Assembly (NCBI GenBank): GCA_003220055.1
Contig: QHRF01000011.1
Span: 1 to 45,969 of the forward strand
Length of the DNA stretch: 45,969 nucleotides
Direction of reading: 5' to 3'
From: Verrucomicrobiota bacterium
Lineage (GTDB): Bacteria > Verrucomicrobiota > Verrucomicrobiia > Chthoniobacterales > UBA10450
Translations under genes and position numbers: made by a program
The notes under the pieces: model-generated
What the model saw: the letters and a program-made list of their open reading frames with translations, nothing else
The model's database searches: none
What the model was told of the DNA's origin: nothing
Shown: piece after piece, positions 9,484 through 16,022 of the stretch
Numbering within the stretch: the first letter of the stretch is position 1
Layout of the letters: every line of letters starts with the position of its first letter

Positions 9484-10458
9484 ATGAAGCGTCCACGCCG
9501 GATCAAAATCGTCGTCGGCACGCGTGGAAGCGAGCTGGCGCTGATCCAAACAGAGCTGGTCGTGCAGGGATTGCAGGCACGTTGGGCGGATTTGAAATTC
9601 GAAGTGAAAGTCATCAAGACTCGGGGAGACGATTCAAAAACGGCAATTCCCGATGTTCGCGCGGGTCGCAAAGGGTTGTTCACCGGAGAAATTGAGCGCA
9701 CTCTCGTCGCGGACGACGTCGATCTTGCCGTGCACAGCGCGAAAGATTTGCCGAGCAAGTTGGTGCCAGGGACAGAGATTGCCGCCGTGCTCCCGCGCGC
9801 TGGTCTGGGCGATGTGTTAGTGGCGACAACGCCTTGCGATTTAAATTCGCTGGCGGTGGACGGAATTGTTGCCACGGGAAGTGTTCGACGGAAACATCAA
9901 CTGCGCTGGAAACGGCCGGACGTGGAGATTGTCGATCTTCGCGGCAATGTGCCGACGCGATTACGCAAACTCGCGACCGACCAATGGCACGCGATCATTC
10001 TCGCGTGCGCCGGGTTGGAGCGACTTGGGCTGGACCCGGGTCGTGCGCGAATCAAGTTTGAAGAAAGCGAATTTTTTACGGCGCTGCTTCCCCGGGAAGT
10101 TTTTGTTCCGGCCGGTGGACAGGGTGTGATTGCGATGCAGATCCGTTCAGGAGACGAACAACTCAGAGAGATTGTCGATGCGATCAACGATTTTGATACG
10201 CGGCTGGCTTTGCGGGCGGAGCGCGAGTTTTTGCGCTTGCTGGATGCGGATTGCAATCAACCCGTAGGAGTGCTCGCCGTTGTCGATGGACCGATCATGA
10301 AAATTCGCGGACAGATTTTCGATCTTGGAGCGACAGCACCACGGGAGGGTCTTGTGCAAGGGCCGAGCGAGGACGCAGAGAAGTTGGCGGCGCAATTGTT
10401 AGAGCAGATTCGAGCACCAGCCTCCGCCCAAGGGCTACGGCTTGGCAAGCGAGCATGA
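9484..10458 (+). CDS. hemC: Hydroxymethylbilane synthase (porphobilinogen deaminase)
   Basis: KIVVGTRGSELALIQTELV, VHSAKDLPSKLVPG, DADCNQPVGVLA (cofactor Cys). Confidence 0.95.
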   Translation: MKRPRRIKIVVGTRGSELALIQTELVVQGLQARWADLKFEVKVIKTRGDDSKTAIPDVRAGRKGLFTGEIERTLVADDVDLAVHSAKDLPSKLVPGTEIAAVLPRAGLGDVLVATTPCDLNSLAVDGIVATGSVRRKHQLRWKRPDVEIVDLRGNVPTRLRKLATDQWHAIILACAGLERLGLDPGRARIKFEESEFFTALLPREVFVPAGGQGVIAMQIRSGDEQLREIVDAINDFDTRLALRAEREFLRLLDADCNQPVGVLAVVDGPIMKIRGQIFDLGATAPREGLVQGPSEDAEKLAAQLLEQIRAPASAQGLRLGKRA

Positions 10459-11996
10459 GCAAGAGCACGAGTAAGGACCAGAGCGGCAAAGTCTATCTTG
10501 TCGGCGCCGGGCCGGGAGATCTTGGACTGGTAACATTGCGTGCGAAGGAATGCATCGAGCGAGCGGACGTTATCGTTTACGATCATTTGGCCAACCCGGA
10601 AATGTTGAGCTGGGCCCGGGAGGAGGCCGAAATTATTTATGCCGGCAAAAAAGCGGGCGAGCACGCGTTAAGTCAGGCGGAAATCAACAAGCTGCTCGTT
10701 GAAAAAGCGCACGCTGGAAAAGAGATCGTGCGTTTAAAAGGCGGCGATCCGTTTGTTTTCGGTCGCGGCGCCGAGGAGGCCAAGGCGATTGTCGATGCCG
10801 GCCTCGCGTTCGAAATCGTTCCTGGAATTACGTCGGCGATTGCAGGCCCGGCTTATGCCGGAATTCCGGTGACGCATCGCGCGGAAAATTCGCACGTGAC
10901 TTTTTTTACCGGTCATGAAGCTCCGTCGAAAACAAAAAGTGCGATTGATTACGCCGCGCTCTCAAAGCTCGGCGGCACGCAGGTGATGCTGATGGGGGTC
11001 GAGAAAATCGAGGCGGTTGCCCGAGAAATGATGACCAATGGCGTCCGGGGTGATCTTCCGGTCGCGCTGGTTCGTTGGGCGACAACGGGACGCCAGGAAA
11101 CATTGACCGGCACGCTCGAGAATATTGCCAAGCGAGTAGCCGAAACTGGATTTGAAGCGCCGGCCGTCGCTGTTTTCGGCGATGTCGTTACATTGCGAAA
11201 AGATTTAAATTGGTACGAGCGCCGGCCGCTTTCAGGAAAGCGGATCGTGGTGACGCGGACGCGGAAACAAGCGGGCGCGCTCACGGCTCAGCTTCGCGCG
11301 CTCGGCGCCGACGTTTTTGAATTGCCGACGATTCGGATCGAGCCGCCGACTGATTTGCGCGAATTCGCTAAGCTCGTCCAGGACGCACACCAATACGACT
11401 GGATTGTGTTTACCAGTCCAAACGGGGTGGACGCATTTTTCGAAATATTCTACAAACTTTACGATGACGCGCGCGAAATCGGCGGCGCAAAAATTGCCGC
11501 GATTGGTCCGGCGACCGCTCAACGGGTTCGCGATTTCCGTCTCCATGTCGATCTTCAGCCCGAGGAATTCGTGGCCGAGGCGGTGGTCCGACAATTTCAA
11601 AAGCAAGGCGGCGTAGAAAATCTGCGAATCCTCCTGGCCCGCGCGGAAAAGGCGCGGGACGTGCTTCCGAAGGAGTTGTCGAAGCTGGGAGCGATCGTTG
11701 ATGAAGCTTTTGCCTATCGGACGGTTCCGGAAACGCGCGACATTACTGGCGCGCGCCGCCGCTTTTTGGAAGAGGGGGCAGATCTGATCACGTTCACGAG
11801 TTCGTCCACGGTGGAAAACTTTCTCGATCTGGGTTTGCCATGGCCAAAGGGAATGCAGGTCGCAAGCATAGGCCCGATCACGTCGAAAACGGCATCCGAT
11901 CGTGGATTAAAGATCGACATCGAAGCGCGACGCCACGACATCGACGGTTTGGTCGAGGCGATCCGGAAATTTCTTGGAACGAAAAATGTCGAATAA
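10455..11996 (+). CDS. cobA-hemD: Uroporphyrinogen-III C-methyltransferase/uroporphyrinogen-III synthase fusion (CobA-HemD)
   Basis: SAM methyltransferase VYLVGAGPGDLGLVTLRAKECIERADVIVYDHL...RLKGGDPFVFGRGAEE, then a HemD domain RIVVTRTRKQAGALTAQLRALGADVFELPTIRIEPP. ATGA overlap with hemC. Confidence 0.92.
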   Translation: MSKSTSKDQSGKVYLVGAGPGDLGLVTLRAKECIERADVIVYDHLANPEMLSWAREEAEIIYAGKKAGEHALSQAEINKLLVEKAHAGKEIVRLKGGDPFVFGRGAEEAKAIVDAGLAFEIVPGITSAIAGPAYAGIPVTHRAENSHVTFFTGHEAPSKTKSAIDYAALSKLGGTQVMLMGVEKIEAVAREMMTNGVRGDLPVALVRWATTGRQETLTGTLENIAKRVAETGFEAPAVAVFGDVVTLRKDLNWYERRPLSGKRIVVTRTRKQAGALTAQLRALGADVFELPTIRIEPPTDLREFAKLVQDAHQYDWIVFTSPNGVDAFFEIFYKLYDDAREIGGAKIAAIGPATAQRVRDFRLHVDLQPEEFVAEAVVRQFQKQGGVENLRILLARAEKARDVLPKELSKLGAIVDEAFAYRTVPETRDITGARRRFLEEGADLITFTSSSTVENFLDLGLPWPKGMQVASIGPITSKTASDRGLKIDIEARRHDIDGLVEAIRKFLGTKNVE

Positions 11997-12717
11997 CGCA
12001 GTCGAACAAGAAAAGGACTTCACGGTCGCGATGCAGCAATTAAGCGCCGAGGCGGAGAAAATCCGGCCGGCGAGGCCGATCCTTACGGATAATTCTTCTT
12101 CGAAGAGCCCGGATCAAAGGGAATCGGCGCCGCCGCCTGAAATTTTAGCCGAACAATTACAAACCCTAGAGAACAATTTGCTCGGCCGTATCGAAAAGCT
12201 ATCGGCTGATATGGATGCGACCAGACGGTCCGCGTTTGCACAACATTTCAAGAAAATTGATGAGCAGCTAGCGTTGATTCGCAACACAGAAAGTGTGAAT
12301 CAGCAGCTGTTCGACTCGCTCCACGCCGAGTTGCTCAAGTATCGCGACAATTTTCTGCACGAATCGCTCCAGAGACCGTTCATCCACGATCTGGTTTATC
12401 TCTACGACCACTTGAATGGACTTTGCGAACAGCTCTCAAGTGCTGCGCAACAGAAGGGGAAGGGCAGCCGGGTGTCCCAGTGGCGCGATAATTTGGAGAA
12501 CGCCATTCAGTCGCTGGTTGAAAGCCTGCACCGCTTCGATGTAAAGGAAATTGAGCCGCGAGAGCGCGTTGACCGGGCTTGTCATCGAGTTATCAGTTAT
12601 GAGCCGGCCGATTTTCCGGAAGAAGATGGCGCCATCGTAATGCGCGTGAAGCGCGGCTTCGTCTGGCGGGGCAAGCTAATTCGCCCCGAGGAAGTGATCG
12701 CAAAACGCTGTGGTTGA
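11986..12717 (+). CDS. GrpE-like nucleotide exchange factor
   Basis: Predicted long coiled coil, then RPFIHDLVYLYDHL and C-terminal EDGAIVMRVKRGFVWRGKLIRPEEVIAKRCG resembling the GrpE beta domain; directly upstream of an Hsp70 gene. Confidence 0.7.
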   Translation: MSNNAVEQEKDFTVAMQQLSAEAEKIRPARPILTDNSSSKSPDQRESAPPPEILAEQLQTLENNLLGRIEKLSADMDATRRSAFAQHFKKIDEQLALIRNTESVNQQLFDSLHAELLKYRDNFLHESLQRPFIHDLVYLYDHLNGLCEQLSSAAQQKGKGSRVSQWRDNLENAIQSLVESLHRFDVKEIEPRERVDRACHRVISYEPADFPEEDGAIVMRVKRGFVWRGKLIRPEEVIAKRCG

Positions 12718-12840
12718 TTGGCGCTTTGCCGTCGCGATTTCAACTCCGCAGTTTGCGCAAATTCTATCCCTTCCGGGGCACGAAAACTGCACTAACGAGC
12801 CGGCGCCGAACCCAAGGCATTCGTCCAACTTTTTTCAGTC

Positions 12841-14403
12841 ATGAGCAAACGCAAAGTAGTCGGAATCGATCTGGGCACGACCTTCTCGGCCATCGCACAT
12901 ATCGATGCCTACGGAAAACCGCAAATCATCCCCAATACAGAAACCGAACGCATCACGCCATCGGTGATTTTCTTCGACGACAGTCAGGTGATCATCGGCA
13001 CGGTGGCCAAGAACAACGCCGTGGCCGAGCCGGAAAAGATTGTCGACTTCGTGAAGCGCGAGATGGGCAAGCCGAAGGATCAATTCCATCGCGAATTCGG
13101 CGGTAAAATTTATTCCGCCGAAGAGCTTTCGGCCCTCATCATCAAAAAGTTAAAGGCTGATGCCCAGAAGTATCTCGATCAGCCGATCACCGACGCAGTC
13201 ATTACCGTGCCGGCTTACTTCAATGATGCCGAGCGCACCGCGACGATCACGGCCGGCCAGCTTGCCGGTTTGAACGTCCTTCAGATCATCAATGAGCCGA
13301 CCGCGGCGGCGCTCGCCTACGGCCTCGATAAGTTGGACGAGAACCAGACGGTGTTCGTTTTCGACCTCGGGGGCGGCACGTTCGACGTAACGATCATGCG
13401 AATTATCGATCACAAAATGGAGATGATCGCGACCAATGGCGATCACCGGCTTGGGGGAAAAGATTGGGACGACGTAATTGTTAATCTCATCGCCGAAGAA
13501 TTCGACCGGCTCCACGGTGAAAACCCGTTACTTGATTTGCACAGCTACCAGGAGCTGCATAACCGCGCGTTGGCGGCGAAGATTCAGCTTTCCAGCCGCA
13601 ACAATACTACCATCGTTTACCACCACGACGGCAAGAGCGTGAAGCTGACTTTGACCCGGAAGGAATTTGAGAAGCGCACGCGGCACCTGGTCGAGAAGTG
13701 CAAAACCATCTGTGAAATGGTGATGCAAGAAGCGAAAATGAAATGGGACAAGATCGACAAGGTGCTGCTGGCCGGCGGTATGACGCGAATGCCGATGATT
13801 CGCGCGATGATTTCAGGTTTTTCCTCTGTGGCGCAAGTCGATCAGGTAAATCCGGATGAGGTGGTGGCGAGAGGCGCCGCTATTCAGGGCATGTTGTCGA
13901 TATTGAACGATGAAGATATTTCGGGAGAAAGAACAGTCGATGACAGCGTCCGCCGGCAGTTTTCTGTGCTCGATGGCGGATTGATTGAAGTTACCGACAT
14001 CACGTCCCACACCCTCGGCGTCGTCCTTTGGGATGAGAGGCAGCTTCATGAATACGTCTTTCCGATGATCCCGAAAATGACGCCGATTCCCGCCGTAATT
14101 AAAAACTCATTCGGGACCGCTGACGCTAACATGCAGCGCGCCGTCGTTAAAGTAGTGGAAGGCGAAAGCACGGTGCCAGGTGAGTGTACGCCGCTCGGGA
14201 TCTGCGACATTCAGCTGCCGCCGTATTTGCCGAAGGGCTCGCCGGTAAAGCTCACTTATCAGTATAACGCCAATCAGGTGTTGGAAGTCGAAGTGCAGGC
14301 GGCCGGCAACAACGCCAAAGTCACTATCGATCGCAACACTGGTCTGGCTCCGCAGGAGATCGAACAAGCCGCTTCCGGCTTGGGCGAACTGCAGGTCAGC
14401 TAG
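12841..14403 (+). CDS. Hsp70-family protein (DnaK-like, C-terminally short)
   Basis: VVGIDLGTTFSAIAHID, NEPTAAALAYGLD, VFDLGGGTFDVTIM, substrate-binding beta region present; 520 aa, no recognisable helical lid. Confidence 0.92.
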   Translation: MSKRKVVGIDLGTTFSAIAHIDAYGKPQIIPNTETERITPSVIFFDDSQVIIGTVAKNNAVAEPEKIVDFVKREMGKPKDQFHREFGGKIYSAEELSALIIKKLKADAQKYLDQPITDAVITVPAYFNDAERTATITAGQLAGLNVLQIINEPTAAALAYGLDKLDENQTVFVFDLGGGTFDVTIMRIIDHKMEMIATNGDHRLGGKDWDDVIVNLIAEEFDRLHGENPLLDLHSYQELHNRALAAKIQLSSRNNTTIVYHHDGKSVKLTLTRKEFEKRTRHLVEKCKTICEMVMQEAKMKWDKIDKVLLAGGMTRMPMIRAMISGFSSVAQVDQVNPDEVVARGAAIQGMLSILNDEDISGERTVDDSVRRQFSVLDGGLIEVTDITSHTLGVVLWDERQLHEYVFPMIPKMTPIPAVIKNSFGTADANMQRAVVKVVEGESTVPGECTPLGICDIQLPPYLPKGSPVKLTYQYNANQVLEVEVQAAGNNAKVTIDRNTGLAPQEIEQAASGLGELQVS

Positions 14404-14405
14404 AA

Positions 14406-16022
14406 ATGACCAAGTGCGATATCAGCTTTCCGCTTCCGCTGCCCGATGATCCGCGAAAGTGGCAGGGATGGAATAATTATCGGTCGCCGAACTACTACGA
14501 ACGGCTCTGTCTCGATCCGCACGCCAATCCAAGCAACCAGCTGATCGAAGAGCACTGCCGCGAGCTCATGCGGTGGTGGCAAAAAAAACTGCCGCTCAAG
14601 AATCAGCCGAGCAATCCACTTGCCCAGCTGCTTCGCTCGGGACTAGAGGAATCATCTCGATTTCTGACCGAGGCGCGGGTGGAACTTCTCGATCCGGAAC
14701 ACCGCCGGGTTCTCGATGAACAACTGGAGGTGCAGCAACACGAAGCGGCCGTATTTGAATTTCTTAAATATCTCGAGTTCGTCCTTTCCAACGGCGTGCT
14801 CACGGCCGAGGAAGAAAAAAATCTCCTGCGCTTCGGTGCCGAGCGGGCCCTCACCGAAGCTGAAATGAATTCGGTGATCGAAGAGGCGCTGCACAAAAGT
14901 GGCGGGCAACGTCGAGCAGTTGCGCCTCCGCCGGTCGAGAAAGGCACCGAAGCGCCCGTGAAATCTTCGTCCGCTAATCCTCAGGAAGAATTCTTGCACC
15001 TGATGCGCCTGAGCAACCTCGACAGTTTCAGCATGAGTGACGATCAACGCGACACCTTCATCGACATGGCGGAAAACCTCGGGCTCGACCCGGGCGAGGC
15101 CGAGGATCTGGTCGATCGTTACCTGGAAGAAGCGGACGACAAATCGCTCGCAGCTTCGCCGAGCGCAACGCCGACCGCGCCTGCACCGCGCGCTGAAGGA
15201 AAGCCTGTTTCGACGCCGTCTCCGGTTGAGGGAAAACCGCCGCCGGTAAAGATCGGGCACAACCCAGAGCTGGAACGCTCGCGTTACGGCAATTTCACAA
15301 ACACGCTCGGTGGGATGATGATCTTTGTTCCATCCGTCGAATTCACAATGGGAAGTGACGCTGAGGACGCCGCGCCAAATGAGCGTCCGCTTACGCATGT
15401 TGCCCTGAGCCGCTTTTATATCTCGCGATGCCTGATCACCAACGCCGAGTACGAGCAATTCGATCGTGCGCACCAGGCCAAGCGGGCTCCCAGCGCGGGG
15501 GATCGCCATCCCGTCGTGTACGTGAGTTATCTCGATGCCGTGAAATTTTGCCAGTGGTTGAGCACGCGCGAACGTCGAAAATATCGTCTGCCCACCGAAG
15601 CGGAATGGGAGTACGCGGCCAAAGGAAAAGACCAGCGCAAATTCCCGTGGGGAAATTATGACGGCCGCGGCGATCTCGCCAATTTTGCGGATCGCAACAC
15701 CGTTTTTGCCTGGAGCGATCGCGAAATCGATGACGGTTATCCGGAAAGTTCGCCGGTCGGTGCGTTCCCGCTTGGCGCCAGTCCATTTGGAATCGAAGAC
15801 ATGGCCGGAAATGTCTGGGAATGGTGTCTCGATTATTACGAGCTTTATCGGCCGGGACCGAAAACGAACCCGCGCGGGCCGTCCGCCGGCACCAAGCGAG
15901 TGCATCGTGGCGGCAGTTGGAAATCGCGCTTCGGCAGTTTACGGACAACGGTGCGCAGTTCGAACGTGCCCGGGTTTTCGTGCAACGATCTCGGCTTCCG
16001 GATCGTTTGCGAATGTGATTAA
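14406..16022 (+). CDS. J-domain-like N-terminus fused to a formylglycine-generating enzyme/SUMF1-fold domain
   Basis: C-terminal GGMMIFVPSVEFTMGSDAEDA...RLPTEAEWEYAAKG...MAGNVWEWCLDYY...RGGSWKS...LGFRIV (FGE-sulfatase fold); N-terminus 'NYYERLCLDPHANPSNQLIEEHCRELMRWW...FLTEARVELLDPEHRRVLDEQL' resembles a J-domain without HPD. Confidence 0.75.
   Translation: MTKCDISFPLPLPDDPRKWQGWNNYRSPNYYERLCLDPHANPSNQLIEEHCRELMRWWQKKLPLKNQPSNPLAQLLRSGLEESSRFLTEARVELLDPEHRRVLDEQLEVQQHEAAVFEFLKYLEFVLSNGVLTAEEEKNLLRFGAERALTEAEMNSVIEEALHKSGGQRRAVAPPPVEKGTEAPVKSSSANPQEEFLHLMRLSNLDSFSMSDDQRDTFIDMAENLGLDPGEAEDLVDRYLEEADDKSLAASPSATPTAPAPRAEGKPVSTPSPVEGKPPPVKIGHNPELERSRYGNFTNTLGGMMIFVPSVEFTMGSDAEDAAPNERPLTHVALSRFYISRCLITNAEYEQFDRAHQAKRAPSAGDRHPVVYVSYLDAVKFCQWLSTRERRKYRLPTEAEWEYAAKGKDQRKFPWGNYDGRGDLANFADRNTVFAWSDREIDDGYPESSPVGAFPLGASPFGIEDMAGNVWEWCLDYYELYRPGPKTNPRGPSAGTKRVHRGGSWKSRFGSLRTTVRSSNVPGFSCNDLGFRIVCECD

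Follow-up and report, generated by a model that had tools for sequence, protein, structure and literature searches.

Can an Hsp70 and its J-protein partner do without both the His-Pro-Asp (HPD) motif and the arginine that receives it, and still constitute a chaperone machine of their own? This question is raised by three consecutive plus-strand open reading frames (ORFs) at positions 11,986 to 16,022 of a 45,969-nucleotide stretch (the window) of contig QHRF01000011.1 from a Verrucomicrobiota bacterium of the order Chthoniobacterales (assembly GCA_003220055.1). A first-pass annotation, made from the letters alone, read this trio as a GrpE-like protein (11,986..12,717, 243 residues), a lidless Hsp70 (12,841..14,403, 520 residues) and, starting 2 bp beyond the Hsp70 stop, a protein joining a J-domain-like N-terminus to an FGE/SUMF1 fold (14,406..16,022, 538 residues), and proposed that they form a dedicated second Hsp70 set. 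All three genes lie where they had been placed. Ratios of nonsynonymous to synonymous substitution of ~0.06-0.2 for the GrpE-like protein, the Hsp70 and both the J-like and FGE parts of the fusion indicate purifying selection on all of them; as the genes are also conserved across the order, chance ORFs are excluded. The explanation we favor, at somewhat better than even probability, is a dedicated Hsp70 machine separate from DnaK, with a rewired, HPD-independent J interface and a catalytically dead FGE domain for targeting.

The Hsp70 and its J-like FGE-fold partner

The Hsp70 matches PF00012 with 407.7 bits over model positions 1-510 of 599, and its nucleotide-binding domain (NBD) and the β part of its substrate-binding domain (SBDβ) are complete. 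The phosphate motifs of the NBD are present and the equivalents of the catalytic residues K70, E171, T199 and D201 are kept in Hsp70s of this type, as the first-pass annotation had read them. The absence of a lid (SBDα) was confirmed as well: all 53 orthologues stop 19 residues past the position of DnaK residue 507, where canonical DnaKs continue for 101-156 residues, and the protein is therefore lidless. In a tree of Hsp70s the trio type forms its own branch (support 1.0) apart from HscA and HscC, and membership of either of those families was rejected.

The surface that faces the J-domain in DnaK has changed. In the DnaK-DnaJ complex D35 of the HPD motif contacts R167 and Q378, while H33 pairs with L391, P34 with P419 and K48 with D477, and helix II of DnaJ touches the DnaK β-hairpin region that includes D208 and E217 (PMC13012618, PMC5519331, PMC8215388). 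The arginine corresponding to R167 is retained in none of the 51 orthologues that could be resolved at this position: 49 carry Q, as does the window protein (Q148, codon 13,282..13,284), and the other two N and K. All 19 canonical DnaKs of the comparison set have R there, and among E. coli controls it is kept in DnaK, HscA and HscC and missing from YegD. In the J-binding β-hairpin the charge at the E206 position is reversed (R187 in the window protein, codon 13,399..13,401), with R or K in 50 of 52 orthologues and E in 19 of 21 comparison sequences. The interdomain linker VLLLD typically reads IQVTN or IKVTN (pattern I-Q/K-V-T-N/D), so that the trio Hsp70 has neither R167 nor the canonical linker, and a refined alignment puts N or D at the D393 position. 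Q378 (H in one case) and P419 are retained in the 11 orthologues compared.

The partner protein begins with a domain of about 110 residues (14,406..14,735) that is recognizable by structure, since sequence methods alone miss it. No Pfam J-domain model matched any of the 55 natural homologues of the fusion, and a profile search of the PDB with its N-terminus gave no match. An AlphaFold model built on these homologues has a mean predicted local distance difference test (pLDDT) score of 86 and contains a short helix (30-33), an extended helix II (44-60/62-66) and helix III (71-95), followed by a long helix (97-129). Foldseek ranks J-domains first among PDB entries: dnj-12 (probability 0.99, template modelling score 0.71 by target length), Tid1 (0.93 and 0.84) and the DnaJ J-domain of the DnaK complex 5NRO (0.47). 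The helix II/III hairpin of the J fold is thus present in the predicted structure, and the J-domain resemblance first noted from the letters holds as a fold, although it comes without a Pfam match and without HPD.

At the HPD position the homologues are almost uniform, with Q in 55 of 55, K in 54 (N in one) and K in 55, that is, 54 QKK and one QNK; not one has HPD. In the window protein QKK (residues 59-61, 14,580..14,588) sits within an invariant WWQKKLPLK.QP block. A published simulation found that removing the HPD proline lengthens helix II, and our model, in which helix II extends to residue 60 with QK at its end, agrees. The charge of this helix also departs from the norm, being mostly net -2/-1 as against +2/+3 in canonical J-domains, and R22 is replaced by E in 52 of 55 sequences. 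The domain fits the definition of a type IV (pseudo) J-domain, a J fold in which HPD is non-conservatively replaced (PMC13254874). Because QKK stands where activating J-domains have HPD, the fusion is not an ordinary J co-chaperone as had first been supposed, and the matching arginine of the Hsp70 is lost too. Taken together, the R167, E206, linker and helix II changes point to a rewired J-Hsp70 interface.

The C-terminal part of the fusion is an FGE/SUMF1-fold domain (15,318..16,007), matching PF03781 with 168 bits over residues 305-534, which replaces the usual client-binding domains of DnaJ as the first-pass annotation had proposed. In alignment with human FGE, serine stands in place of one catalytic cysteine (GGSW-KSR for GGSY-MCH...C) and the other site falls in a deletion; both cysteines are absent in 21 of 21 orthologues. 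The domain is hence a pseudo-enzyme and, judging from these residues, most likely a binding fold rather than an oxidase. SUMF2, PvdO, TvpA and PorK/GldK are other FGE-fold proteins without the catalytic cysteines. Separately, a Cys-x-Cys motif (VCECD/E, window positions 16,005-16,019) closes the domain in 20 of 21 orthologues. The middle region (residues 111-250, 14,736..15,155) is all-helical in the model, with helices up to residue 249; it belongs to no known family, giving no Pfam match above cut-off and no clear fold match.

The identity of the GrpE-like protein was borne out by sequence and structure. It matches PF01025 with 44.1 bits (cut-off 25.8), and its AlphaFold model, a long coiled-coil helix (78-157) with a β wing (186-241), has GrpE crystal structures as top Foldseek matches (1dkg, 4ani and GrpEL1). 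Matches to designed armadillo proteins were rejected as chance hits biased by repeats. The Hsp70 NBD loop region 270-310 has 35 residues, compared with 41 in DnaK, 31 in HscA and 33 in HscC.

Inheritance and genomic setting

The trio Hsp70 is not the sole Hsp70 of these organisms. Full-length canonical DnaK (874-896 bits) is encoded elsewhere in 22 of 24 relatives bearing the fusion; in the remaining two it is in two pieces and a fragment, respectively. In the source genome, an assembly that is ~80% complete in 148 contigs, a canonical grpE followed by dnaJ lies on contig C83 and a further dnaJ on C93. The only PF00012 match there besides the trio Hsp70 is a short stretch of 44 bits, probably MreB-like. 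A third group of Hsp70s is also widespread in the relatives (e.g. L068, L069, L071-L073); these proteins of ~600-650 residues, 41-44% identical to E. coli DnaK, keep R167 and the lid and are a further DnaK paralogue.

The Hsp70 and the fusion are inherited together. The Hsp70 gene lies directly upstream of the fusion gene in all 25 fusion-bearing genomes searched and, including a genome from outside the Chthoniobacterales (G511) in which the two also stand side by side, in 26 of 26. A phylum-wide draw of 388 genomes returned the fusion and the trio-type Hsp70 in the same five and neither in the others, and 28 fusion-free genomes of the order hold only ordinary Hsp70s (best 236 bits, compared with 725-1161 bits). 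The pair is one evolutionary unit. With its strict conservation and the canonical DnaK found elsewhere, the proposal of a dedicated second Hsp70 set is upheld. As a unit of three the trio fared less well: the GrpE-like gene occurs in 31 of 36 loci and, because it is missing from five, it is outside the invariant core. In four of those five cobA-hemD directly precedes the Hsp70 gene.

The N-terminal 245 residues of the fusion have matches in 71 of 197 genomes of the order. Named matches come from Chthoniobacterales/Spartobacteria and are nearly all metagenome-assembled genomes, with the addition of Chthoniobacter flavus Ellin428. We found the set in Chthoniobacterales and in one sampled genome of another order, and not with the spread over Verrucomicrobia and Planctomycetes that had been envisaged. 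A weak match to the fusion in G060 was dropped as a RecN-like protein. C. flavus (NZ_ABVL01000001.1) is the only cultured species with a name among those found; its Hsp70 runs over two reading frames and an in-frame TAA interrupts the fusion, reflecting either draft errors or real decay. Four genomes (G070, G087, G051 and G058; L078-L081) encode a second J-like/FGE fusion, ~45% identical and away from any trio-type Hsp70, with neighbors not common to the four. All four also have the trio, and this paralogue may work in trans with its Hsp70.

The window trio lies between cobA-hemD and secDF. The cobA-hemD fusion gene (10,455..11,996, plus strand; siroheme/haem biosynthesis) is its upstream synteny partner, without functional membership being implied. 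The GrpE-like ATG overlaps the end of this gene, stop included, by 11 bp and, given this overlap and the 2-bp gap between Hsp70 and fusion, the trio and the hem genes very probably share a transcript. No CIRCE heat-shock operator was found in the window. In one genus without the set, five of six genomes examined (L187-L190, L192) show hemC, cobA-hemD and secDF with no trio gene between; as the whole trio is missing from this place, it is gained or lost as a block. The neighbor survey found nothing widely shared beyond the trio, the hem genes and flanking housekeeping genes, and no conserved effector or GTPase.

The first-pass annotation had named three outcomes that would speak against it, namely neighbors that are not conserved, these genes being the only dnaK and grpE copies, and a fusion N-terminus without a J-like hairpin; none of these was found.

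How the pair might work

In the mechanism we propose, the lidless Hsp70 would bind and hydrolyze ATP and hold an extended peptide in its open SBDβ, with the fusion protein as its only obligate partner. The J-like domain would dock near the usual J site through the rewired surface, without the HPD-R167 contact, and the dead FGE-fold domain would recognize a client or target and bring the Hsp70 to it. Where present, the GrpE-like protein would eject ADP, and ATP turnover, aided by it in those loci, would drive short-lived binding in the open SBDβ. Binding among the proteins, stimulation of the ATPase by the J-like domain and client binding by the FGE domain are all three steps that we infer. To the more specific proposition, that both partners gave up the universal HPD-R167 trigger and acquired a replacement docking surface with shifted charges, making a lidless, FGE-targeted system orthogonal to DnaK-DnaJ, we give slightly less than even weight.

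Several observations weigh against the explanation that we favor. Partner binding is deduced from genetic evidence and from changes in the surfaces. The E206R change alone is no marker of HPD independence, since HscA shares it. Five of the 36 loci do without the GrpE-like gene. The structural matches to J-domains have weak Foldseek E-values (best 0.4), and hhalign against three J-domains gave a probability of 1.6%, with the register correct. HPD and R167 may have been lost together in one old event rather than many times independently; since a single ancient change is possible, their co-occurrence is a correlation of two families and provides no count of independent events. Finally, HPD-less J proteins such as Pam16 give no ATPase stimulation (PMC13254874).

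This last point leads to the alternative that survives best, and which we nevertheless regard as unlikely: the fusion could be a non-stimulating, Pam16-like pseudo-J protein that tethers the Hsp70 to an FGE target or locks it in one state, hydrolysis being intrinsic or otherwise triggered and the Hsp70 acting as a nucleotide-gated holdase. All homologues have QKK (QNK in one) in place of HPD, and in known systems stimulation is lost on even slight alteration of HPD, with Pam16 (DKE/DKS) as precedent (PMC13254874); in four genomes a second fusion gene lies apart from any trio-type Hsp70. However, the QKK block does not vary and the Hsp70 differs at R167, in the hairpin and in the linker too, which argues for a specialized contact rather than simple decay; retention of the GrpE-like gene in 31 of 36 loci suggests that the ATP cycle is active; and the same review cites a designed HPD-less J sequence that stimulates Hsc70 (PMC13254874).

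For the client, the setting of the genes raises one candidate. Less probable still than the pseudo-J alternative, a tetrapyrrole-biosynthesis chaperone would fold, stabilize or regulate HemA, HemC or CobA-HemD from within the hem operon. Consistent with this, cobA-hemD lies next to the trio or pair, upstream and on the same strand, in 28 of 36 loci across several families, in many cases with hemA and hemC ahead of it, and the window genes overlap translationally. Yet the trio or pair is sited elsewhere in the other eight loci, including the genome outside the order, and hemC and cobA-hemD remain where they are in the genus that lacks the trio, so that the synteny may be ancestral. The position in the hem operon therefore suggests a tetrapyrrole client without showing one.

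A stress or conflict (defense) module is very improbable. Its model would be the systems of Kaur et al. 2020, in which HSP70, GrpE and DnaJ/FNIII fusions join GTPases and FGS domains bind without acting as enzymes (PMC7159879), but the linked GTPase and other core genes of those GAP1-N2/HSP70 systems are missing here, PADLOC gives no match, apart from the hem and trio genes the neighbors include no conserved effector, GTPase or additional gene, and the largely fixed chromosomal place and order-wide inheritance are not patchy. That the fusion is an active FGE-type enzyme, with the Hsp70 set aiding sulfatase maturation, can scarcely be credited and is largely refuted: PF03781 is matched well above cut-off, but both catalytic cysteines are gone in all 21 aligned orthologues.

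Comparison with known systems

The trio shares with DnaK-DnaJ-GrpE an Hsp70 with intact ATPase residues, a J-fold partner and a GrpE-fold factor encoded together. It differs in an Hsp70 that has no lid and an altered R167 and linker, in a J-like domain without HPD, glycine/phenylalanine-rich region or client domains, and in its coexistence with the canonical set in relatives. HscA-HscB and HscC-DjlB/DjlC offer parallels as dedicated second Hsp70s with their own neighboring J-proteins, and HscA shares the R at E206, but HscA and HscC retain R167, have a lid and use no GrpE, their J-proteins keep HPD or HPE, and the trio Hsp70 stands on a branch of its own. The FGE/SUMF1 pseudo-enzymes have the same fold without catalytic cysteines; here, unlike in those proteins, the fold is joined to a J-like domain in a protein whose gene is paired with that of an Hsp70. 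The FGE fold is widespread and few non-enzymatic functions have been assigned to it so far.

Type IV J proteins such as Pam16/Tim16 and DnaJB13 likewise combine a J fold with non-conservative replacement of HPD. In this case, however, the J-like protein is tied by its genetics to a single Hsp70, itself without the matching arginine, and no HPD-bearing J gene was seen beside the fusion. The GAP1-N2 GTPase systems (Kaur et al. 2020) also bring together, in one neighborhood, HSP70, GrpE and a J-domain fusion, but the trio has no GTPase or GAP1 partner and no effector, and its fusion carries FGE rather than FNIII. In the library we searched, which excludes most subscription journals, we found neither a description of this system nor a paper linking FGE with DnaK or DnaJ; one text match for Chthoniobacter and Hsp70 was unrelated.

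J-proteins are said to conserve no motif more strongly than HPD. Whether J-domains without it arose by accident or were selected has been called enigmatic in a 2026 review, which also raises the question of their effect on Hsp70 (PMC13254874). Here an HPD-less domain is invariant across an order and linked to one Hsp70 without the matching arginine, which makes that question testable with one purified pair. These Chthoniobacterales soil bacteria provide a natural test case for rewiring of the HPD-arginine switch and, if our explanation is right, would offer an orthogonal Hsp70 system ready for use, as well as a defined role for an FGE fold that has lost its catalytic activity. A lidless, R167-less Hsp70 and an HPD-less J-like FGE fusion are combined in none of the nearest known systems.

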